NCBI RefSeq assembly: GCF_900167555.1
Contig: NZ_FUYF01000016.1
Location: 1 to 49,626 of the forward strand
Reading direction: 5' to 3'
From: Gemmiger formicilis
GTDB taxonomy: Bacteria > Bacillota > Clostridia > Oscillospirales > Ruminococcaceae
DNA length: 49,626 bases
The notes beneath the pieces are model-generated. The model was not told the origin of the DNA. It worked only from the letters and a program-made list of their open reading frames with translations, and searched no databases. Position numbers and translations under genes: made by a program. This document shows positions 10,634-49,110 of the stretch, one piece after another; within the stretch, counting starts at the first letter, position 1; each line of letters begins with the position of its first letter.

Positions 10634-10652
10634 TTTGCGGAGGAACACTGCA

Positions 10653-11780
10653 ATGATTATCAAAAATGCAAAAGTCTACAGCGACGGCTGCCGCTTTGTG
10701 GAAAAGGACCTCATCATCCGCGATGGCCGCATCGTCTTTGGCGCGGCCCCGCAGGAGGGCGAGGATGTCATTGACGCGGGCGGTGCCTATGCGCTGCCGG
10801 GTCTGGTGGACATCCATTTCCACGGCGCAGTCGGCCACGATTTCTGCGACGCCGACGAGGCCGGCCTGCAGGCCATCGCTGATTTTGAGGCGAGCAAGGG
10901 CGTGCTGGCCATCTGCCCCGCAACCATGACGTTCAGCGAGGAGATCCTGAACGGCATCATGGACGTGGCCGCGGCCCACAAGAACGAGCGCGGCGCGGAT
11001 CTGGTCGGCATCAACATGGAGGGGCCGTACATCAGCCCCAAGAAGGTTGGCGCGCAGAACCCGAAGTACGTCATGGCCGCCGACGCGGGCATGTTCCGCC
11101 GCCTGCAGGCGCGCAGCGGCGGGCTGATCAAATTGGTTGACGTCGCCCCCGAGGAGCCGGGCAATCTGGATTTCATCAAGGAATGCCGCGATGAGGTGCG
11201 CATTTCGATTGCCCACACCTGCACCGATTACGACACGGCCAAGGCCGCGTTTGCGGCGGGGGCATCCCACATGACCCACCTGTACAACGCGATGCCGGGC
11301 ATCACCCACCGTGAGCCGGGGCCGATCATTGCCGCGCTGGAGGACGGTGCCGAGGTCGAGCTGATCACCGACAACGTCCACATTCACCCGGCGATGGTGC
11401 GGTTCACCTTCAACACCTTCGGGGCGGATCGTGTGATTTTGATTGCGGACAGCATGATGGCCTGCGGTCTGCCTGACGGCCAGTACAGTCTGGGCGGCCA
11501 GGCCGTCACGGTGCGCGGACCCCGCGCGACGCTGACTGAGCAGCCCGGCACGATTGCGGGCAGCGCGACCTGTCTGTTTGACTGCATGAAGCGTGCGGTC
11601 CTCGACATGGGCGTGCCCCTTGAGAGTGCCGTCCGCGCCGCGACCCTGAACCCCGCCCGCAGCATCGGCATTGATGCCGATTACGGCAGTCTCGACGCAG
11701 GCCGCTACGGCAACGTCGTGCTGGTCGATGATAAGCTGGATATTTTGAAGGTTGTGCGGCACGGAGAGGTTATCGGCTAA
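10653..11780 (+). CDS. nagA: N-acetylglucosamine-6-phosphate deacetylase
   Basis: NagA removes the acetyl group from GlcNAc-6-phosphate, supplying NagB. It is a metal-dependent amidohydrolase of 375 residues, normal for the family. GLVDIHFHGAVGHD carries the first metal-site histidines (about 55-60), NMEGPYISPKK the catalytic-site Glu, SIAHTCTDY and SHMTHLYNAM further metal ligands, and ADSMMACG the catalytic Asp. The ATG at 10653 is chosen because GGAGG lies 8-12 bases upstream. Structured repeat module 1 begins only a few bases after the stop codon. Confidence 0.96.
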   Translation: MIIKNAKVYSDGCRFVEKDLIIRDGRIVFGAAPQEGEDVIDAGGAYALPGLVDIHFHGAVGHDFCDADEAGLQAIADFEASKGVLAICPATMTFSEEILNGIMDVAAAHKNERGADLVGINMEGPYISPKKVGAQNPKYVMAADAGMFRRLQARSGGLIKLVDVAPEEPGNLDFIKECRDEVRISIAHTCTDYDTAKAAFAAGASHMTHLYNAMPGITHREPGPIIAALEDGAEVELITDNVHIHPAMVRFTFNTFGADRVILIADSMMACGLPDGQYSLGGQAVTVRGPRATLTEQPGTIAGSATCLFDCMKRAVLDMGVPLESAVRAATLNPARSIGIDADYGSLDAGRYGNVVLVDDKLDILKVVRHGEVIG

Positions 11781-11786
11781 ACCGGG

Positions 11787-11990
11787 AACGGCAGTCCCCC
11801 GGAAACTCGCTTTCTTTTGGCAGCAAAAGAAAGCTTGCAAAGAAAACTGCCGCTGTTGCGAATGCAGCGGACCCCGCCTTAGGGGCTGCACGCCCCTAAG
11901 AACCCCAATAAGGAAGTCGGAAGGGCCGATGGCTAAACGGACGCAGTATTACTGTCCGTTCTTAACGCCATCGGCCCTTCCTCCACTTTT
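11787..11990 (+). repeat. Structured repeat module 1, copy A (covarying hairpins)
   Basis: This element of about 200 bases has a hairpin GCTTTCTTTTG/CAAAAGAAAGC (11809-11834), then CCGCTG/CAGCGG (11850-11870), then CTTAGGGGC/GCCCCTAAG (11878-11900). A compound hairpin follows: outer 15-bp stem 11919-11933 with 11967-11981, inner 7-bp stem AACGGAC/GTCCGTT (11936-11942 with 11954-11960), and loop GCAGTATTACT. Copy B is at 19668-19865. Stem bases differ between copies while pairing is kept. Both copies start within about 10 bases of a stop codon in the gene's orientation. Confidence 0.85.
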
Positions 11991-12000
11991 GAGTCGGGAG

Positions 12001-12267
12001 TTCCCCCGAACCCCCGCAGGGGTGAGGTGGAGGCCCCCTTGTCAAAGGGGGCTGGCCGCGTTAGCGGACTGGGGGATTCCGACGGGCTGTGCGTGGTCGC
12101 CCATTCCCGGGCAACCTCCGCACGCGAAAAGGGGCCGGGCTGCCGCCCCCCCTCGCCCCTCTCGTCCGCGACCCGTTTACGGCAGTCTGTAGGGGCCGGG
12201 CATGCCCGGCCCGCAGCCTCGCCATTACCACCCCTTTTATCCTTTGCATCGTAGGGAGGGGTCTTGA
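12001..12267. repeat. Mixed short palindromic repeats
   Basis: This stretch between modules 1 and 2 includes a GCCCCCTT...AAGGGGGC hairpin near 12033-12052, a CCGGGCATGCCCGG palindrome with a TAGGGG edge at 12190-12212, and the start of a GTAGGGAGGGGTCTTGACC unit at 12251. No frame here resembles a protein. Confidence 0.6.
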
Positions 12268-12412
12268 CCGCTTGACGGCGCACAACGAGCGCCGTCAGCC
12301 AGCAAAGCTGGCCCGCTCATGCGGTTGTTTGCCCTGCAGGGGCAAACATTGTTCGCTCCCCGATTTCGCTCCGCTCAACCGTGGGCCCACGCTCACAACC
12401 CCGCACCTCCGC
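12268..12412 (-). repeat. Structured repeat module 2, copy A (covarying hairpins)
   Basis: This copy is the inverse orientation of 19879-20027. Hairpins seen on + are GACGGCG/CGCCGTC (12274-12296), GCCAGC/GCTGGC (12298-12312) and a GTTTGCCC/GGGGCAAAC stem near 12325-12347. In the other copy the same helices have different bases but still pair. Confidence 0.75.
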
Positions 12413-12660
12413 GGGGCGTCGGGGACGCCGCCCCCTACAACACAATCCGCAGGGCTTCTCATTACCGCAAACGTCCGCGGCGGCCTGGGGGCAGGCCGCC
12501 CTACATCCCACTTTACCACATTCCGTGGGACGGGCCTTCGCCCGCAACTCATTCACGCCACCCTGTAGGGGCCGGGCATGCCCGGCCCGCAACCCTGCCA
12601 TTACCACCCCGTATCCTTTGCATCGTAGGGCGGCAAGCCACAGGGCCTTTGCATAACCGC
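12413..12660. repeat. Run of short palindromic repeats
   Basis: Units in order: GGGGCGTCGGGGACGCCGCC ending in CCCTAC (about 12413-12438), GGCGGCCTGGGGGCAGGCCG ending in CCCTAC (about 12479-12505), and TAGGGG with CCGGGCATGCCCGG (12566-12588). The three have different cores but share TAGGG or CCCTA edges. Nothing here looks coding. Confidence 0.65.
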
Positions 12661-12680
12661 CCAGCCCCCTCAAACACAAA

Positions 12681-12718
12681 AATAACCTGCCTGCGACCTC
12701 TCGCAGGCAGGTTATTTT
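12681..12718. terminator. Bidirectional terminator at the end of the symporter gene
   Basis: A perfect 16-bp stem, 12681-12696 with 12701-12716, has loop CCTC, T run TATTTTTT on + and ATTTTTG on -. It mainly serves the - strand symporter gene. A second hairpin, GTTCCTTT/AAAGGAAC, lies at about 12723-12748 between this terminator and the stop codon. Confidence 0.9.
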
Positions 12719-12768
12719 TTTAGTTCCTTTTCTTCTAAGGAAAGGAACAAATCCCCGTCTCGCAAAAA

Positions 12769-14103
12769 TTACTTCCGGTCAATCGCCACAACTACGCCGG
12801 CCAGCGCCAGCAGGGCCAGCAGGTTCGGCACGGCCATCAGGCCGTTGAACAGGTCGGCCAGCGCCCAGACCAGATCGACCTTCAGGGTAGAGCCGACCAG
12901 AATGAACGCAACTACAATGATGCTGTACACCGGCAGCAGTTTCTCGCCGAACAGCGCCTTGAAGTTCGACTGGCCGAAGAAATACCAGCCGATGATCGTC
13001 GAAAACGCGAAAAAGAACATGCACACCGCGATGAAGATCGGCCCAAAGCCGCCGAACGCCTGGCTGAAGGCGGCCTGGGTCAGCACCGTGCCGGTCATGC
13101 CCTGCGGGATCAGGCCGGACGTGATCAGCACCAGGCCGGTCAGCGTCAGCACAACGAACGTGTCAACGAACACGCCCAGGATCGCCACAGCGCCCTGGTC
13201 CTGCGGGCGCTCGACCTTGGCCAGCGCGTGGGCGTGGGGCGTCGAGCCAAGGCCCGCCTCGTTGGAGAACAGGCCGCGGGCCACGCCGAAACGCATGGAC
13301 TGCTGCACGGTCACGCCTGCGATGCCGCCCGCCATGGCCTGCGGCTCAAACGCCAGCACAAACACCTGCGCCAGCGCGCCGGGCAGCGCCTTGGCGTTGA
13401 TGACCAGAATGACGATGCAGCCCAGAATGTAAAATGCCGCCATGATCGGCACAACTTTTTCCGTTACAGCGGCAATTCTCTGCACGCCGCCCAGGAAGAT
13501 GAACGCCGCAATGGCCGCCACCACGACGCCCACCGCCAGCCGGTTCAGGCCAAAGGCGTTGTGGAACGCATCACCGATGGAGTTGGACTGTACCATGTTG
13601 CCCATGAAGCCCAGCGCCAGAATGATGAGCACCGAGAACACCGTGGCCAGCACCTTGCCGACCTTGCCCTTGAACGCGGCGCGAATATAGTACGCCGGGC
13701 CGCCCGTGACATGGCCGTTCACCGTGGTCTTGTAGTGCTGCGCCAGCACGGCCTCGGCGTAAATGGTCGCCATGCCGAAAAACGCCGACACCCAGGTCCA
13801 GAACAGCGCGCCCGGGCCGCCGCTGACCAGCGCCGTGGCACAGCCCGTGATGTTGCCGGTGCCGACCTGCGCCGCAATGGCCGTCGTCAGCGCCTGAAAG
13901 CTGCTCATGCCCTCGGCGTCCGCCTTTTTGCCGCGCAGCGTAAAGCCGCCGAACACACGGCGGAAGCCCTCACCAAAGCGGCGCACCTGCACGCCGCGCA
14001 GCCGCACGGTAAAGTACACGCCCGTGCCGACCAGCAAAAACAGCAGCAGCGAGTTCCACAGAACATCGCTGAACTGCTCAATAAACGTAGTAAATGCCGC
14101 CAT
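12769..14103 (-). CDS. Alanine/glycine:cation symporter (AGCS family)
   Basis: This is a membrane sodium- or proton-coupled importer of alanine or glycine with 444 residues and about 10-11 hydrophobic segments. Family signatures include the ALTTAIAAQVGTGNITGCAT region near residue 85, GGPAYYI near 140 and RGLFSNEAGLGSTPHAHA near 285. The start at 14103 is preferred because GGGGG lies 5 bases upstream; in-frame ATGs at 14130 and 14115 give up to 9 more residues. It is a single-gene unit with the strong terminator downstream. Confidence 0.93.
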   Translation of the reverse strand: MAAFTTFIEQFSDVLWNSLLLFLLVGTGVYFTVRLRGVQVRRFGEGFRRVFGGFTLRGKKADAEGMSSFQALTTAIAAQVGTGNITGCATALVSGGPGALFWTWVSAFFGMATIYAEAVLAQHYKTTVNGHVTGGPAYYIRAAFKGKVGKVLATVFSVLIILALGFMGNMVQSNSIGDAFHNAFGLNRLAVGVVVAAIAAFIFLGGVQRIAAVTEKVVPIMAAFYILGCIVILVINAKALPGALAQVFVLAFEPQAMAGGIAGVTVQQSMRFGVARGLFSNEAGLGSTPHAHALAKVERPQDQGAVAILGVFVDTFVVLTLTGLVLITSGLIPQGMTGTVLTQAAFSQAFGGFGPIFIAVCMFFFAFSTIIGWYFFGQSNFKALFGEKLLPVYSIIVVAFILVGSTLKVDLVWALADLFNGLMAVPNLLALLALAGVVVAIDRK

Positions 14104-14253
14104 ACTGACCCCCATAACTTTTACATCCAAAATCCCCGCCGCAATGCGGGCGACTTATTTACTATACTATGAATTTGATATAAAGTCAAGTGTATTTGTA
14201 TGGCGCACACACTGGCGGCTGTGTCCGGTAAACGGGCGCTTGCGGGAAGCCCG

Positions 14254-14280
14254 CGGGCCGGGCATGCCCGGCCCCTGCAG
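14254..14280. repeat. Single CCGGGCATGCCCGG palindromic repeat
   Basis: GGGCCGGGCATGCCCGGCCC followed by CTGCAG lies between the divergent symporter and lipoprotein genes. The CCCTAC edge seen in most copies has decayed to CCCTGC. Confidence 0.75.
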
Positions 14281-14352
14281 GCAGTCCAAAATTTGCCGCA
14301 AAAAAATTTCAAAAGACCCCGCCCGTGTCACAACTCGGACACAACCGGGTGG

Positions 14353-14358
14353 TATGAT
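14353..14358 (+). promoter_or_regulatory. Extended -10 box of the lipoprotein gene
   Basis: TGGTATGAT lies 32 bases before the start codon. TGTCACAACTC and GGACACAACC just upstream form an imperfect direct repeat. No good -35 is visible. Confidence 0.5.
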
Positions 14359-14389
14359 GGCGAAAACGGAACCGGAAAGGAGACAAACC

Positions 14390-15604
14390 ATGAGAAAACT
14401 CGTCCTTCTGCTGGCCTCCGCGCTGGCCCTGACCGCCTGCACCGCCGCACCCGAGGTATCGTCCCCAGCCGAAGCTGCCCCGCCCGCCGAGACCGCAGCC
14501 ACCGGCGAGGTCGCGGCGGCGTTCCCGGTGGGGACGCTGCAAATGGCCATCCCGGAGGTGATGGACACAGGCGCCGCCTCGGTTGAGATACCGTTCTCGG
14601 GGCTTGAGACCGAGCCGATCCTGAAGCTCGACTACGCGGCGGGCGTGCAGACAAAGCTCTGTGACATCGACCTGTCGCGGCAGATCCCGGTAGCCATCAT
14701 GCAGCACGGGGACACGGTGGAATACTTCTGGGACTCCGAGGGCGGCACCGTGTTTGCCCACACGGCCATCCGCCCCGACGGCAGCGTCGAGGAGCAGACC
14801 GTCCCGAGAAAATTTTACCCCAACCTCTACGACGAGTACGCGGCGTATGACATTTGGGGCACGGCCTGCACGCGGCTGGACTGGCAGACCGGGGAGCTGA
14901 CCACTGCGTCGCTGCCGTTTGTGCAGCTGGATGGCGTTCTGGGCGCAGTCGGCAGCCGGGTGCTGCTGACCCGCATTGTGTCCGACACGCCGCTGCCGGA
15001 GGGCGAGGGCAACGAGGAAATGCGGGACGCCGTGCTGCAAAACTCGCTGCGGGAGTACGACCTCTACGATCCGGCGACGAACACGATTGAAAAGGTGTTC
15101 GATGAGCCGTACTATCCCGAGGACCACAACGAGCTGAAATCCTATCTGGGTTACTGCGGCGACAAGCTGTATTTTGGGGTCTCCTGCACGGACGATGCGT
15201 CCGCGCTCAGCCGGAAGAACACGCTGGTCAGCTATGACCGCACCGCGGGCATCTGGCAGGAGGAATGCAGCGCCGACTCCAAGGGCGGGGAGTACAGCAA
15301 TTTCTGGCCGCTTTTGCAGGACGGCCAGCTCAGGCTGGTGGTGCTGTGGCGGGGAACGGACACCCTGACGCTTTACAGCATCGACAACGGCGCGCGGTAC
15401 GAGGTCCCCTATGAGGAGGCCGGGTCCGATGCCACCGGGAACAGGAATTTCCCGATAGCCCTGACCGACGATGGCCGCATTTTGGTGACGGACGGGTACA
15501 TTGACCGCAGCGGCGTGGCCGCCAGCCGGTATGCGCTGATCGATTTGGGCGCGTATCTGGCGGGAAGCCGGGAGTATACCGCGGTGGAGATGTGGACGGA
15601 GTGA
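14390..15604 (+). CDS. Predicted lipoprotein of unknown function
   Basis: The 404 residues begin MRKLVLLLASALALTACTAA, a signal peptide with lipobox LTAC (lipid-modified Cys at 17), then a Pro/Ala/Glu-rich linker to about residue 45. The rest alternates short beta-like stretches (TRLDWQTGELT, YDLYDPATNTIEKV, LVSYDRTAGIWQ) that resemble the repeats of a beta-propeller or WD40-like fold, but I do not recognise a named family. GGAAAGGAG precedes the ATG at 10 bases. It is alone on its strand and ends before a terminator shared with typA. A surface sensor or binding protein is possible. Confidence 0.85.
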   Translation: MRKLVLLLASALALTACTAAPEVSSPAEAAPPAETAATGEVAAAFPVGTLQMAIPEVMDTGAASVEIPFSGLETEPILKLDYAAGVQTKLCDIDLSRQIPVAIMQHGDTVEYFWDSEGGTVFAHTAIRPDGSVEEQTVPRKFYPNLYDEYAAYDIWGTACTRLDWQTGELTTASLPFVQLDGVLGAVGSRVLLTRIVSDTPLPEGEGNEEMRDAVLQNSLREYDLYDPATNTIEKVFDEPYYPEDHNELKSYLGYCGDKLYFGVSCTDDASALSRKNTLVSYDRTAGIWQEECSADSKGGEYSNFWPLLQDGQLRLVVLWRGTDTLTLYSIDNGARYEVPYEEAGSDATGNRNFPIALTDDGRILVTDGYIDRSGVAASRYALIDLGAYLAGSREYTAVEMWTE

Positions 15605-15640
15605 GGCGGTAAAATGCGGACCGCCGGTTATGGGCAATTT

Positions 15641-15737
15641 GTAGGGAGCGGTCTTGACCGCTCCGGGGGCCATGCGTGCGGGCACGCACCGTCCCACACA
15701 CCCCCGCACGTAGAGGCCGGGCATGCCCGGCCCCTAC
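15641..15737. repeat. Palindromic repeats after the lipoprotein gene
   Basis: GTAGGGAGCGGTCTTGACCG plus CTCC (about 15641-15664) is followed by GTGCGGGCACGCAC (about 15676-15689) and by TAGAGGCCGGGCATGCCCGG ending in CCCCTAC (15711-15737). The first is a variant of the AGGGGTCTTGACCCCT unit in which one pair has changed on both sides. Confidence 0.7.
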
Positions 15738-15752
15738 AACTCGACAAAAATC

Positions 15753-15790
15753 AAAACGAGCCGCCCCAATCGTCGGGACGGCTCGTTTTT
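15753..15790. terminator. Bidirectional terminator between the lipoprotein gene and typA
   Basis: Arms AAACGAGCCG and CGGCTCGTTT, with an inner CCC/GGG helix, are flanked by TTTTT on + and TTTTGATTTTT on -. It serves both convergent genes. Confidence 0.88.
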
Positions 15791-15801
15791 ATGCGAATAA
15801 A

Positions 15802-17631
<1,830 letters not shown>

Positions 17632-17709
17632 ATACGTTCCCTCTCAAATTGAAAATGCCGATATACTGATATTTGCAGGGGCAAAGCCCCAATATCCACA
17701 TACTATTTT

Positions 17710-17738
17710 ATAATACGCTATAATGTGGTATTTGTCAA
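17710..17738 (-). promoter_or_regulatory. Sigma-A promoter of typA
   Basis: On the - strand TTGACA (17738-17733), a 17-base spacer and TATTAT (17715-17710). The leader carries a small GGGGCTTTGCCCC hairpin before the ribosome site. The divergent ppaC unit has an extended -10 TGCTATAAT at 17762-17770 and an inverted repeat TAGTG-N8-CACTA at 17782-17799. Confidence 0.8.
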
Positions 17739-17825
17739 GAATCGCAAAACGCAAAAATGTGTGCTATAATATGGATTATTATAGTGATATTTTACACTAA
17801 TTAAACCATACGGCTTTACATTCTC

Positions 17826-17970
17826 CTTGGCCCCCTCTGGGAGGGGGCTCCCGCCGCAGCGGGTGGGGGAGAGAGCCTGGCCAGGTGAGAAGGTTTCGGG
17901 CAATGGCAAGGTTCTCTCCCTCCGCCCCTTCGGGGCACCTCCCTCCCAGAGGGAGGCAAGGACGCGAAGA
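17826..17970. repeat. GGCCCCCTC-type intergenic repeat
   Basis: TTGGCCCCCTCTGGGAGGGG opens the element, followed by CCCGCCGCAGCGGG, GGGGGAGAGA, then CAAGGTTCTCTCCCTC and a closing CCTCCCTC...GAGGGAGG hairpin. It resembles 40215-40365 and sits in the 5' leader of ppaC. Confidence 0.78.
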
Positions 17971-18003
17971 TGAGGGAAACAAAGTATACGAGGGAGAACC
18001 ACT

Positions 18004-19662
18004 ATGGCAAACAACACGGTACGCCACATCAACATCATCGGCCACCAGAACCCGGACACGGACTCGATCTGCTCCGCGCTGGCGTATGCCTGGCTGAAAA
18101 ACCGCGGCAGCCTGACCGGCCTGTATGAGGCCCGCCGCGCCGGACATGTGAACCGGGAAACGCGGTTCGTTCTGCAGCACTTCGGCGTGGAGCCGCCGCG
18201 GCTTTGCACCGACGTCAGCCCGCAGATCAAGGACATCGACATCCGCAAGCAGGCGGGCATCGACGGCGAGATGAGCCTGCGCGCGGCCTGGAACCTGATG
18301 CGCGACGTCGAGATCGACACGCTCTGCATCGTGGACAGCGACAACGAGCTGCAGGGGCTTATCACCATCAAGGACATTGCCGACGCGAACATGGACCTGT
18401 TCGACACGGCAGTGCTGGCCGCGGCCAACACCCGCTGCACGAACCTGCTGGAAACGCTGGAGGCTGAGCTGGTGGTCGGCAGCGCCGACGCCCACATTGA
18501 CAGCGGCAATATCTGCATCGGCACCAGCCCGGAAATCATGGAGGAGCTGGTCAAGCCCGGCGACCTTGTGCTGGTCTCCAACCGGTACGAGACCCAGATG
18601 TGCGCCATCGACTGCGGCGCGCAGGCCATCGTTGTCTGCTGCGGCTCCGCGGTGCCGCGCACCATCGTGGCACGTGCGCAGGAAAAGGGCTGCGCCGTGC
18701 TGGCGACCCCCTACGATACCTACGCCGCCGCGCGGCTCATCTCCACCGCCGCGCCGGTGCGCCACTTTATGCGCACGAAGGAATTGCTGAAATTCAGCGT
18801 AAATACGCCGATTGAGGACGCCAAAAAGGTTATGGCCAGCGTGCGTCACCGCTATTTCCCGATCCTGGATGAGAACGGCAAGTACTGCGGCGTCGTCAGC
18901 CGCCGTAACCTGTTGAACCTGCACCGCAAGCAGGTCATTCTCGTTGACCACAATGAGCGCACCCAGGCCGTGGACGGTCTGGAGCAGGCGGACATTCTGG
19001 AGATCATCGACCATCACCGCATCGGCAGTCTGGAGACCACCGGCCCGGTCTATTTCCGCAATGTTCCGGTGGGCTGCACGGCCACGATTTTGTACCAGAT
19101 GTACGGCGAGCAGGGCCTGACGCCCAGCCGCGAGATCGCGGGTCTGCTGCTGTCGGCCATTCTGTCCGATACGCTGGTGTTCCGCTCTCCGACGTCCACC
19201 CCGCAGGACGAAGCCGCCGCCAAGGCGTTGGCCGCGCTGGCGGGCGAGGACATCCAGTCCTACGCCGAGCAGATGTTTGAGGCAGGTGCCGACCTGACGG
19301 GCCGCACGGCGGAGGATGTGTTCAGCTCGGACTTCAAGGCGTTCAGCCGCGGCGACGTCAAGTTCGGCGTCGGCCAGTCCACCTACATGACCGACAAGTC
19401 CCGCGCCGCCGCCGAGGCGCTTGTGCAACCGTTCCTGCCCGAGGCGAGCCGCCGCGAGGGTCTGCCGCTGATCTTCTACATGTTCACCGACATGAAGACC
19501 CAGAGCACCGACCTGATGTTCTACGGCCACAACGCCGAGGAGATCATCCGCGATGCGTTCCACGTCGAGCCGGAGGGGAACATAGCCAAACTGCCCGGTG
19601 TCGTCAGCCGCAAGAAGCAGCTCATCCCGCCGCTGCTGGCAGCTTTGCAGGCGCGGCAGTAA
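18004..19662 (+). CDS. ppaC: Manganese-dependent family II inorganic pyrophosphatase with CBS-DRTGG-CBS insert
   Basis: Hydrolyses pyrophosphate to phosphate in the cytoplasm. The N-terminal DHH domain has IIGHQNPDTDSICSA (about 11-25) with metal ligands H, D and D, and the DHH motif IIDHHRIG is at about 334-341. The DHHA2 C-terminal domain ends with SRKKQLIPPL, whose RK contacts substrate. An insert of about 250 residues carries a CBS half (MRDVEIDTLCIVDSDNELQG), a DRTGG-like middle and a second CBS half (VRHRYFPILDENGKY). At 552 residues it is a CBS-PPase, the form inhibited by AMP/ADP and activated by ATP or diadenosine polyphosphates in characterised relatives. GAGGGAG precedes the ATG. 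Module 1 copy B starts about 6 bases after the stop. Confidence 0.95.
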   Translation: MANNTVRHINIIGHQNPDTDSICSALAYAWLKNRGSLTGLYEARRAGHVNRETRFVLQHFGVEPPRLCTDVSPQIKDIDIRKQAGIDGEMSLRAAWNLMRDVEIDTLCIVDSDNELQGLITIKDIADANMDLFDTAVLAAANTRCTNLLETLEAELVVGSADAHIDSGNICIGTSPEIMEELVKPGDLVLVSNRYETQMCAIDCGAQAIVVCCGSAVPRTIVARAQEKGCAVLATPYDTYAAARLISTAAPVRHFMRTKELLKFSVNTPIEDAKKVMASVRHRYFPILDENGKYCGVVSRRNLLNLHRKQVILVDHNERTQAVDGLEQADILEIIDHHRIGSLETTGPVYFRNVPVGCTATILYQMYGEQGLTPSREIAGLLLSAILSDTLVFRSPTSTPQDEAAAKALAALAGEDIQSYAEQMFEAGADLTGRTAEDVFSSDFKAFSRGDVKFGVGQSTYMTDKSRAAAEALVQPFLPEASRREGLPLIFYMFTDMKTQSTDLMFYGHNAEEIIRDAFHVEPEGNIAKLPGVVSRKKQLIPPLLAALQARQ

Positions 19663-19667
19663 GATTA

Positions 19668-19865
19668 ACGGCAGTCTCCCGGGAGGTCCTACTTTCTTTT
19701 GTGACCAAAAGAAAGTAGCAAAGAAAAGTCTCGCTGTTGCGACGCAGCGAACCCGCGCCTTAGGGGCTGCACGCCCCTAAGAACCCCAAAGCGGAAGTCG
19801 GAAGAGGCGGGGGCTAAACGAAAGCAGTATTACTTTTCGTTCTTAACGCCCCCGCCCCTTCCTCC
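19668..19865 (+). repeat. Structured repeat module 1, copy B (covarying hairpins)
   Basis: Same order of helices as copy A: ACTTTCTTTTG/CAAAAGAAAGT, TCGCTG/CAGCGA, CTTAGGGGC/GCCCCTAAG, then a compound hairpin with outer stem 19800-19814 with 19848-19862 (one A-C mismatch), inner stem AACGAAA/TTTCGTT and the invariant loop GCAGTATTACT. Seven base pairs differ from copy A with pairing kept. It begins just after the ppaC stop, in the same orientation. Confidence 0.85.
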
Positions 19866-19878
19866 ACTTTAAATTCGG

Positions 19879-20027
19879 GTGTTGCGGGGTTGCGAGCGCG
19901 GGGCCACAGTTGAGCGCAGCGAAACTGGGGAGCGAGCAATGTTTGCCCCTGCGGGGCAAACAACCGCACGAGCGTGTTTGCGAAGCAAACTGGCGGCGCT
20001 CGTTGTGCGCCGCCAAGCGCCCCCGAA
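19879..20027 (+). repeat. Structured repeat module 2, copy B (covarying hairpins)
   Basis: Here it directly follows module 1. Helices are GTTTGCCCC/GGGGCAAAC (near 19941-19961), GTTTGC/GCAAAC (19976-19990) and GGCGGCG/CGCCGCC (19992-20014). The second helix is GCCAGC/GCTGGC in copy A, so three base pairs have changed together. Confidence 0.75.
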
Positions 20028-20052
20028 CCCCCGATGCCGGAAACAGCAGTCC

Positions 20053-20140: not shown

Positions 20141-20167
20141 ACCTTCCCATCGCCACCCACTACATAA

Positions 20168-20207
20168 AAAGGACGCACAACCGTAAAGGTCATGCGTCCT
20201 TTGTTTT
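20168..20207. terminator. Terminator of the acyltransferase operon
   Basis: A 10-bp stem AAAGGACGCA/TGCGTCCTTT flanked by T or A runs lies immediately after the - strand acyltransferase stop. It can act in both directions. Confidence 0.85.
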
Positions 20208-21205
20208 TATGCCAGCTTTTTTATGGCCTTGCCAAGCGGGCGGCTTACCGCCGTCAGCACCGCCGCCGGCACAAAGCTGGCGGCGAGATACACCGGGAAC
20301 ATCCCGGCCAGCGGCAGGCCGTGCCCCTGCACAAACGGCAGGAATACCAGCGTCAGCAGGACATGATGCACCAGGTACACGCCGTAGCACCAGCCCGCCA
20401 GCCGCCGCAGGGCGGGGCAAAGCGGTGCGGGTACGTGCTGCCCGGCGGCATAGACTGCCCAGAACAGCACCGACGCCAGCACCAACAGCACGGCCAGACG
20501 CGGCACTTCGTCCACCCACAAAAGCGGGCAGACCGCCAGCCCGATATACAGCCGATAGGACGGCAGCGCGTTCTTTTTCAGCAGCGTGCCGAACCACACC
20601 CCCAGCGCAAACGCGGGCAGGCGGCCCAGTACCGTATGCCCGGCCTCCCACGGAGCGGGGCAGACGAGCGGCCAGACAACGGCCAGCACTGCCATGCAGA
20701 GCGCCAGCACCCGGCGGTGCGCTGCGGTCTCCATGCACCGGAGCAGCAGCGGGAACACGAGATACAAAATCAGGATAACGCCCAAAAACCACTCGCCGAT
20801 TTTGTAGAAAGTGACCGTCACGGGCGCTAAATACCCATCCAGCCCCAGCACTGAAAAAATCACACGCCAGCGCGGAATATCGGCGTTGTTGCCGTGCAGG
20901 ACCTCGCCGTACAGGAACAGCGCGCCAAACCCCAGCCAGAACGCCGGGTAGGTCGCGGCGGCGCGGCCCACAAAGTAGCGCCGGGCGTCAAACCGTCCCT
21001 GCCATTGCAGGCAGAGCGCCGCACCGGACAGCAGAAAAAACCACGCCAGCCCGACCTCGACCCAGTCGGCCATGCCGCGGCCAATCAGCGCCGTCGGCAC
21101 GGCAAAGCCCAGGCGCGCGGCCTCGATGCAATAGTGGTAGCACAGCACGGGCAGCAGCGCGGCCAGCCGAACCACATCCAGCCCGGGACGATAATTTTGG
21201 GGCAT
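20207..21205 (-). CDS. Membrane acyltransferase (acyltransferase 3 / OafA-like family)
   Basis: This 332-residue integral membrane protein has roughly ten hydrophobic segments. The N-terminus PGLDVVRLAALLPVLCYHYC fits the family's (R)-x10-H pattern, with the catalytic-type His in YHYC. Relatives O-acylate cell-surface sugars or exopolysaccharide; the acceptor cannot be told from sequence. The start is the ATG at 21205, whose A overlaps the TGA of the upstream export gene (TGATG), so translation is probably coupled; a GTG one codon earlier is also possible. No polysaccharide genes are adjacent. Confidence 0.85.
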   Translation of the reverse strand: MPQNYRPGLDVVRLAALLPVLCYHYCIEAARLGFAVPTALIGRGMADWVEVGLAWFFLLSGAALCLQWQGRFDARRYFVGRAAATYPAFWLGFGALFLYGEVLHGNNADIPRWRVIFSVLGLDGYLAPVTVTFYKIGEWFLGVILILYLVFPLLLRCMETAAHRRVLALCMAVLAVVWPLVCPAPWEAGHTVLGRLPAFALGVWFGTLLKKNALPSYRLYIGLAVCPLLWVDEVPRLAVLLVLASVLFWAVYAAGQHVPAPLCPALRRLAGWCYGVYLVHHVLLTLVFLPFVQGHGLPLAGMFPVYLAASFVPAAVLTAVSRPLGKAIKKLA

Positions 21206-29945: not shown

Positions 29946-29969
29946 TGGTATACTGTGTTATACCACCCG

Positions 29970-30200
29970 GTAGGGGCCGGGCATGCCCGGCCCGCAGGTT
30001 TACGCAAGCTACCCGTTCACGTTTTACAGCACCCCTTTTCAAATTGCATTGCAGGGAGGGGTCTTGACCCCTCCGCGGTGGCCAGAGGGCTGGCCGCCCT
30101 ACAAGCGCCCGCAAAAGAAATGCGTAGGGGAGGGATTTATCCCTCCCGGGACGTGTGCGGCAGCCACGGGGCGTCGAGGACGCCGCCCCCTACCAATTCA
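29970..30200. repeat. Palindromic repeats between pflB and pflA
   Basis: In order: TAGGGG with CCGGGCATGCCCGG (29971-29993), AGGGAGGGGTCTTGACCCCT (about 30054-30076), GTAGGGGAGGGATTTATCCC with TCCC (about 30124-30149), and GGGGCGTCGAGGACGCCGCC with CCCTAC (about 30167-30193). They form the 5' leader of pflA if the candidate promoter at 29946 is right. Confidence 0.7.
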
Positions 30201-31289: not shown

Positions 31290-31850
31290 GTCACGGGAAA
31301 CCGAGGCCGCCCCTTTTGCGGTTTGTATGTAGGGCGGGGTGCCCTCACCCCGCCGCGGGGCGTCGGGGACGCCGCCCCCTACAGCGGCGAACCGCGAACT
31401 TTCCCGTTATGGCAGACGCCCGCAAAAAGGTCATCCCTCCCGGGACTATTGCAACCCTGTAGGGGCCGGGCATGCCCGGCCCGCGGCCTGACGAAAGCGC
31501 CCGTCTGCGGGAACCACCCCGGGCGGATATAGAATCCGCCCCTACGGGAAATCGCTGCCGCCCCTTTTGCGGTTTGTATGTGGGGCGGCGAACCGCGAAC
31601 TTTCCCGCTATGGCAGACGTCCGCGGCGGCCTGTGGGCAGGCCGCCCTACGCATCGCCCGCAAAAAGGTCATCCCTCCCGGGACTATTGCAACCCTGTAG
31701 GGGCCGGGCATGCCCGGCCCGCGGCCTGACGAAAGCGCCCGTCTGCGGGAACCACCCCGGGCGGATATAGAATCCGCCCCTACGGGAAATCGCTGCCGCC
31801 CCTTTTGCGGTTTGTATGTGGGGCGGCGAACCGCGGGCGTATATCCCGCA
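31290..31850. repeat. Repeat array with a ~178-bp direct duplication
   Basis: The block 31418-31595 recurs essentially identically at 31657-31834 (offset 239). Each block holds a TAGGGG/CCGGGCATGCCCGG unit (31460, 31699), GGGCGGATATAGAATCCGCC with CCCTAC (about 31520, 31759) and CCGCCCCTTTTGCGG. Between and before the copies are GTAGGGCGGGGTGCCCTCAC (31329), GGCGTCGGGGACGCC (about 31360) and GGCGGCCTGTGGGCAGGCCG (about 31625) units. No frame in this region is credible as a gene. Confidence 0.8.
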
Positions 31851-48662: not shown

Positions 48663-48859
48663 AGGAAACGCTCCTTTCATGAAAATCAGGTATCGAATGG
48701 AAAACTGACACAAGATATAGTAGGAAAGAACCGTTCTTCTGCCTACAGTATACACCATCCATCCTGTCACATCAAGGGGAAACATGTAACGCTTGTGTAA
48801 AGATTGCGCGAGAGGGAGACTCGCCGGAAGTTGATGTCTGCCATCCCGCTTCTTTCCAC

Positions 48860-49110
48860 CCCCCCGTAGGGGCCGGGCATGCCCGGCCCGCGCACTTTCC
48901 GCCGCCGCCCGTTACTGCTTTACACACCCCGTCTCACCCCTACATCGTAGGGAGGGGTCTTGACCCCTCCGCGGGGCGTCGAGGACGCCGCCCCCTACAG
49001 AGATGGCCCGAAACCATCCTACACCTATACACGCCCGCGGCGGCCTGAGGGCAGGCCGCCCTACAATCTTCCGTTCACCCCCCCGTAGGGGCCGGGCATG
49101 CCCGGCCCGC
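48860..49110. repeat. Palindromic repeats before the rRNA operon
   Basis: CGTAGGGG with CCGGGCATGCCCGG (48866-48889), GTAGGGAGGGGTCTTGACCC with CTCC (about 48946-48971), GGGGCGTCGAGGACGCCGCC with CCCTAC (about 48973-48999), GGCGGCCTGAGGGCAGGCCG with CCCTAC (about 49038-49064), and TAGGGG with CCGGGCATGCCCGG (49086-49108). From 49110 to 49290 is C-rich, low-G DNA without a gene; I see nothing else in it. Confidence 0.75.

Follow-up and report, generated by a model that had tools for sequence, protein, structure and literature searches.

A chain of covarying hairpins in Gemmiger formicilis as a candidate solo end of a mobile repeat

We investigated a chain of hairpins, here called M1, that occurs twice in a 49,626-nucleotide stretch of Gemmiger formicilis DNA (NCBI RefSeq assembly GCF_900167555.1, contig NZ_FUYF01000016.1, positions 1 to 49,626; hereafter the window). 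We consider it somewhat probable that M1 is the solo end of a family of hairpin-ended, non-coding, non-autonomous mobile repeats found in Gemmiger and some of its relatives. A preliminary description of the window had reported the two copies and proposed either a structured 3'-untranslated-region (3'-UTR) RNA or a hairpin-based mobile repeat; the analysis favours the second and speaks against a sense 3'-UTR RNA as a rule. Both copies lie where they had been placed, copy A starting at 11787 and copy B at 19667 (previously 19668). Their parts are as follows (G000 denotes the genome of the window, other G numbers the genomes compared).

11787..12017, + strand: M1 copy A, comprising the previously described 11787-11990 and a fifth hairpin read by eye; one of 15 copies in the genome.
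11809..11834, + strand: H1 of copy A, arms GCTTTCTTTTG and CAAAAGAAAGC around GCAG, from the fold.
11850..11870, + strand: H2 of copy A, CCGCTG ... CAGCGG, from the fold and the alignment.
11878..11900, + strand: H3 of copy A, arms CTTAGGGGC and GCCCCTAAG around TGCAC, the best conserved core.
11919..11981, + strand: H4 of copy A, outer stem 11919-11933/11967-11981 and inner stem 11936-11942/11954-11960, with loop GCAGTATTACT and internal loop TA/CTTAAC.
11994..12009, + strand: H5 of copy A, a small hairpin TCGGG ... CCCGA, read directly by eye.
19667..19876, + strand: M1 copy B, from sequence comparison and genome search.
19689..19718, + strand: H1 of copy B, arms CTACTTTCTTTTG and CAAAAGAAAGTAG around TGAC.
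19800..19862, + strand: H4 of copy B, with one pair broken (A-C).

Firstly, we compared the two copies over the 48 pairs of five helices. Eight pairs differ, seven of them through changes in both bases that preserve Watson-Crick pairing (one in H1, one in H2, three in the outer and two in the inner stem of H4); the single broken pair is A-C, and H3 and the loop GCAGTATTACT are identical, all as the preliminary description had it. If the two arms mutated independently, seven coincident two-arm changes would have a probability of 1.1e-7, and both copies fold into far more stable structures than their dinucleotide shuffles (z-scores of -8.05 and -5.31). Secondly, we extended the comparison to an alignment of 15 copies, 14 from the same genome and one from the near relative G013 (48 pairs, 720 pair cells). 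The covariation holds in these further copies: 17 of the 48 pairs vary, 16 of them by changes on both sides, and the remaining one departs only through unpaired cells, so that none of the 720 cells carries a one-sided (wobble) change. Pairing is kept in 98.8% of the cells, whereas column shuffles average 87.8% and slid partners 44-54%. Thirdly, among 30 ends of the same fold in G018, 11 pairs vary, 10 of them with both bases changed and none with a change in one base only, and 98.9% of 644 pair cells pair; in H4 of these ends both stem arms change around partly fixed loop bases. A tree-based covariation test of our own design, a weak one in which substitutions are re-placed along the tree, retained 4 of the 48 structure pairs at E<=0.05, within a total of 11 significant column pairs, 7 of which lie outside the structure. 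RNAalifold, run on a mixed-genome alignment, misaligned H1.

Paired changes of this kind could also stem from template switching between hairpin arms during replication, a mechanism described for RNA genes (PMC8794818). M1 would then be a passive repeat spread by recombination, its covariation a sign of mutation bias and not of selection on structure. Such an origin agrees with the lack of one-sided intermediates in either alignment and with the joint change of several adjacent pairs in H4. It also agrees with recombination among the copies: the four-gamete test, passed by 9 of 15 pairs of segments, indicates that M1 copies recombine and that their segments reassort. Template switching alone leaves unexplained the loops and linkers that are fixed across genomes, the order of the hairpins and the pairing of two end types, A and B, presented below. 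In other genomes the H1 slot is occupied by different stems or by a hairpin unrelated to H1, and template switching does not account for this unrelated hairpin either. We therefore regard template switching as quite unlikely to be the whole explanation; it may act jointly with mobility of a hairpin-ended repeat.

The mobile-repeat reading draws on the arrangement of the fold in other genomes, where it forms the two inverted ends of a non-coding element of about 0.5-1 kb. Among neighbours at most 800 nt apart in G018, G022 and G009, whose matches are listed in full, 21 of 22 are inward-facing; this includes all 15 close neighbours in G018, with spans of 402-473 nt. All 15 G018 units consist of one A and one B end, as defined by three core motifs that were chosen after inspection. 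In units of G009, G018 and G022 the two ends can be aligned with each other over 82-209 columns with an identity of 73-84%, their outer limits being undefined, and in G009 the left and right ends share outer sequence too. H1 of the G018 ends is the usual hairpin in 24 of 30 and an unrelated hairpin in the other 6.

We then assessed how widely M1 is distributed. A search of the whole genome gave 16 matches, one of which is the opposite strand of the palindromic H4 of copy A, leaving 15 M1 copies; the copy at L015 carries an inserted second repeat and was for that reason matched in its 3' part alone. In the named genome collection an exact core pattern occurs in 10 stretches, every one from Gemmiger. 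A first core model, R1, has matches in 11 of the 35 genomes of the genus (above 54 bits in 8 of them) and in 15 of 297 family genomes. A second, R2, for which H2 and H3 of 24 copies from ten genomes served as seeds, has matches in 27 of the 35 genus genomes, up to 54 in one genome, and, in wider searches, in 20 of 396 family and 7 of 394 order genomes; the wide searches give lower bounds (stricter filters, few candidates scored per genome), seed copies match by construction, covariance-model E-values are rough and some genomes are incomplete. Outside the genus only G203, G395 and G409, from two genera, exceed 40 bits, and the R2 matches outside the family, at most 30.5 bits, were not counted. 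No catalogued RNA corresponds to M1, as had been anticipated: Rfam release 15 at the gathering threshold hits only a tRNA at 74-146 of the window, and a permissive Rfam search of 11700-12100 returned nine matches, all under their gathering scores. The plasmid collection contains no M1 match, and the viral contigs no match to the exact core pattern. Carriage by a phage was considered on account of a single scaffold, MT837355.1 (L186), an unverified human-faecal 'Bacteriophage sp.' entry, and is not established by it: at 12139-12348 it bears a terminal M1 copy, 89.5% identical to copy B, adjoining a frame that matches a WYL regulator, the other seven of the eight tested frames having no Pfam match. 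The open-access literature searched, a scope outside which the supplementary motif lists of PMC8040213 fall, yielded no published description of the M1 repeat.

Comparison with near relatives revealed turnover of the copies. With the flanks joined as one query, all 15 left flanks were located in both G013 and G014, and both relatives are without M1 at 11 of the 15 sites. G014 has M1 at none of the 15 and no match to either core model. G013 has it at four, namely those of copies 10 and 13, that of copy 8, where the 5' half is present, and that of copy 1, where a decayed remnant stands; the site of copy 2 holds a possible trace of about 10 bases of the left end. At the sites of copies 5, 14 and 8 the spacing from stop to next start in G014 is 12, 11 and 20 nt, and the arrays in G000 measure about 415, 489 and 488 nt. 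Differences were also seen among other genomes: at a locus common to G009, G020 and G005 (L276 vs L246, L277) the unit is reversed in G005, as if invertible, and at another site G005 has a one-ended part and G020 no unit. One G022 unit is absent at the same place in six other genomes read; a seventh, G006, has other repeats there. Mobility is suggested by this presence and absence among relatives together with the paired ends, and we infer that the turnover reflects transposition, in which an enzyme acting in trans would recognise folded DNA.

In this proposal, the paired form would be a unit of about 0.5-1 kb bounded by two related, distinct ends in inverted orientation. Each end would present its hairpins in a fixed order (H1, A-rich linker, H2, H3, C-rich linker, H4), and these would be recognised as folded DNA by a putative enzyme supplied in trans. 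Such recognition would leave the stem sequence free as long as pairing is kept, and would hold some loops and linkers fixed. In the genome of the window only one end type was found, and each of its 15 copies is the module nearest the gene in an intergenic array that otherwise consists of other palindromic repeats. A bolder version, which we advance tentatively and hold to be rather doubtful, is that these repeats constitute a new class of transposable element, whose two distinct ends are set by a folded chain of hairpins and not by sequence; stems, and even an entire hairpin, would be replaceable as long as the architecture and a few loops remain fixed, which would point to an enzyme reading the shape of the DNA.

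Several observations weigh against a mobile repeat with paired ends. An unsupervised two-way split of the 30 G018 ends tracked the H1 hairpin and not the A/B types (10 units fell within one cluster, 1 within the other and 4 were mixed). One wide end pair in G018 encloses a frame which we read, by eye and not by a search, as a host response regulator; the ends can thus also flank host genes. In the genome of the window only one end type was found among the 15 copies and no inverted partner was found near any of them, so that the unit here is incomplete or different. No transposase for the element was found, and no autonomous parent with the same ends is present among the units read, which do not amount to a complete search. 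Neither a target-site duplication nor a clean insertion junction was found, the flanks at empty sites being too diverged to read. Finally, a stop codon tends to precede the left end (in 39 of 51 callable copies), as would also be expected if M1 had a role as RNA.

That role was the other proposal of the preliminary description. In the form considered here, M1 would be a structured RNA of the 3'-UTR or of intergenic regions, would serve to stabilise the upstream mRNA or to process it, and would have spread because it is useful. The features relevant to it are the genes in front of the two copies and the probable terminators behind them.

10635..11780, + strand: amidohydrolase (nagA-like) gene, an open frame with Pfam Amidohydro_1, whose end lies 6 nt ahead of copy A; the preliminary description supplied the name nagA.
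18004..19662, + strand: DHH/DHHA2/CBS/DRTGG (pyrophosphatase-like, 'ppaC') gene, from Pfam, whose end lies 4 nt ahead of copy B and which has orthologues in 33 of the 35 genomes of the genus.
12680..12721, no strand assigned: probable terminator behind the copy A array, an inverted repeat followed by a T run; read directly, missed by the consensus scan.
20166..20210, no strand assigned: probable terminator, an inverted repeat with a T run; read directly, missed by the consensus scan.

Copy A begins 6 nt past the TAA of the amidohydrolase gene and copy B 4 nt past that of the DHH/DHHA2/CBS/DRTGG gene, and the sense position behind a stop codon was borne out for 9 of the 15 copies of the genome. 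These nine start 4-13 nt past the stop, eight of them at 4-6 nt by direct reading. The remaining six do not follow a sense stop (P=0.61 against 1:1): their left neighbour is antisense, and for copies 2, 4, 9 and 12 the left end is close to an apparent ribosome site and start codon of that neighbour. Gene calls came from a simple and crude codon-usage caller, an earlier version of which gave 11/15 before retraining gave 9/15; copies 9 and 12, which changed between versions, were settled by reading the antisense start codons. In 58 copies from 10 genomes, with some further listed ends left out of the tally, the caller assigned 39 as sense, 12 as antisense and 7 as undetermined; the 39 of 51 callable copies differ from 1:1 (P=0.0002), the copies being non-independent. 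Sense placement is thus only a tendency, not a rule, and avoidance of promoters could yield part of it. In the 13 arrays printed from this genome M1 is the module that adjoins the left gene, with other palindromic repeats to its right.

An RNA role is supported by the strong covariation with fixed loops and linkers, by folding z-scores of -3 to -10, by this sense bias with its tight spacing to the stop, and by the position of M1 ahead of probable terminators. The region of G014 that matches 20166..20210 has a terminator-like inverted repeat and no M1. No + strand intrinsic terminator was detected inside either M1 copy by the consensus scan, an insensitive one that missed both probable terminators, and its one - strand match lies at 19751-19730. 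Opposed to an RNA role are the six copies with no sense stop ahead, the 11 sites empty in both relatives, the occurrence of the fold in both orientations within one unit, and the nature of the changes themselves. A sense RNA would make wobble pairs common departures, and there is no G-U pair in the 1364 pair cells of the two alignments (720 + 644). With hairpins located by Watson-Crick pairing alone, the distinct departures from such pairing in H1, H3 and the outer stem of H4 of the 58 copies comprise 12 A-C, 2 G-T and 12 others; the excess of A-C over G-T has P=0.013 and rests on few independent events, two of the A-C states being shared by every G012 copy. An A-C departure here corresponds to G-U on the opposite strand, a possible hint of a minus-strand RNA, and the minus strand folds more stably in 58 of 58 copies. 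For 13 of the 14 copies tested, all except L075 of G203, this difference lies within about 1 SD of that in dinucleotide shuffles, and assignment of a strand by fold energy was dropped because both strands fold about equally well when compared with shuffles. The absence of wobble pairs is consistent with DNA that is constrained on both of its strands, or with arm-to-arm copying by template switching. We consider a structured RNA unlikely.

Classical miniature inverted-repeat transposable elements (MITEs) are short and non-coding and have similar inverted ends. M1 is like them in G009, where the inverted ends are similar; it differs in that its ends are distinct in sequence and share a fold, and in that we found no target-site duplication or parent insertion sequence. 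Structured RNAs, as collected in Rfam or from human microbiomes (PMC8040213), share covariation and fixed loops with M1, which differs by having no Rfam match and no G-U pairs and by occurring in both orientations; it may overlap with motifs in the supplementary lists of PMC8040213. Our best reading is that M1 behaves like a REPIN or a BOX element, and we do not class it as either. REPINs (PMC3116915) resemble it as short, non-coding, intergenic units, many per genome, with two inverted folding ends that occur as doublets and singlets. M1 is unlike them in that each end is a hairpin chain of about 150 nt, the ends differ and no RAYT link was found. The BOX elements of the pneumococcus (PMC3049150) are, like M1, modular, foldable intergenic repeats that cluster, nest and are tolerated downstream of genes. 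M1 belongs to another host family and has another size, and its hallmarks against BOX are the inverted A-B ends and the changes on both sides of pairs, a distinction drawn from description and not from the boxA, boxB and boxC sequences.

Mobilisation of M1 as a REP or REPIN-type element by a RAYT, a Y1 tyrosine transposase, deserves separate mention. Inverted left-end and right-end doublets with remnant singlets are the layout of REPINs (PMC3116915), the genome of the window encodes a 295-codon frame with a Y1_Tnp match, and Y1_Tnp matches are present in 6 of the 8 genomes that R1 matches strongly and in 13 of the 27 others. Against this, G008 and G020 carry M1 and G018 has 49 R2 matches, all three without a Y1_Tnp match, and M1 stands at none of four Y1 loci examined. 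The M1 ends are also far larger than REPs, for which the RAYT-REP definition (PMC3733652) requires a GTAG tag beside a 20-40 bp palindrome. We judge a RAYT origin very improbable.

If M1 is indeed the end of a mobile repeat, a common gut genus would carry an element recognised by its fold and not by its sequence, with copy numbers that can reach the tens in a genome, which would open a search for the mobilising enzyme and offer a natural setting in which to test how hairpins acquire compensatory changes. It would also serve as a warning, for the discovery of structured RNAs in microbiomes, that covariation lacking G-U intermediates need not imply a functional RNA. With 9 of 15 insertions right behind stops, three of them at junctions where stop and start are tightly spaced in the relative, the element may alter the expression of neighbouring genes.

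The window holds other repeats in and around the same arrays.

12258..12410, - strand: second repeat module, M2, an inverted copy within the array behind copy A (inverted pair I2).
19878..20030, + strand: M2, directly behind copy B (inverted pair I2).

M2 is inserted inside H2 of M1 at L103 of G013 and at L015 of the genome of the window, and it interrupts the H5 loop of copies 2 and 10. The 295-codon Y1_Tnp frame of this genome lies at L182 (G000:C53:6300-10800), with no M1 and none of the other tested modules in its vicinity. Intergenic regions of the window contain nine copies (family D1) of a short palindrome, GTAGGGGCCGGGCATGCCCGGCCC, for example at 12172-12235, 29953-30016 and 48849-48912. 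Finally, a direct duplication of 181 nt (D6) occupies 31417-31597 and 31655-31835, 238 nt apart and 100% identical.

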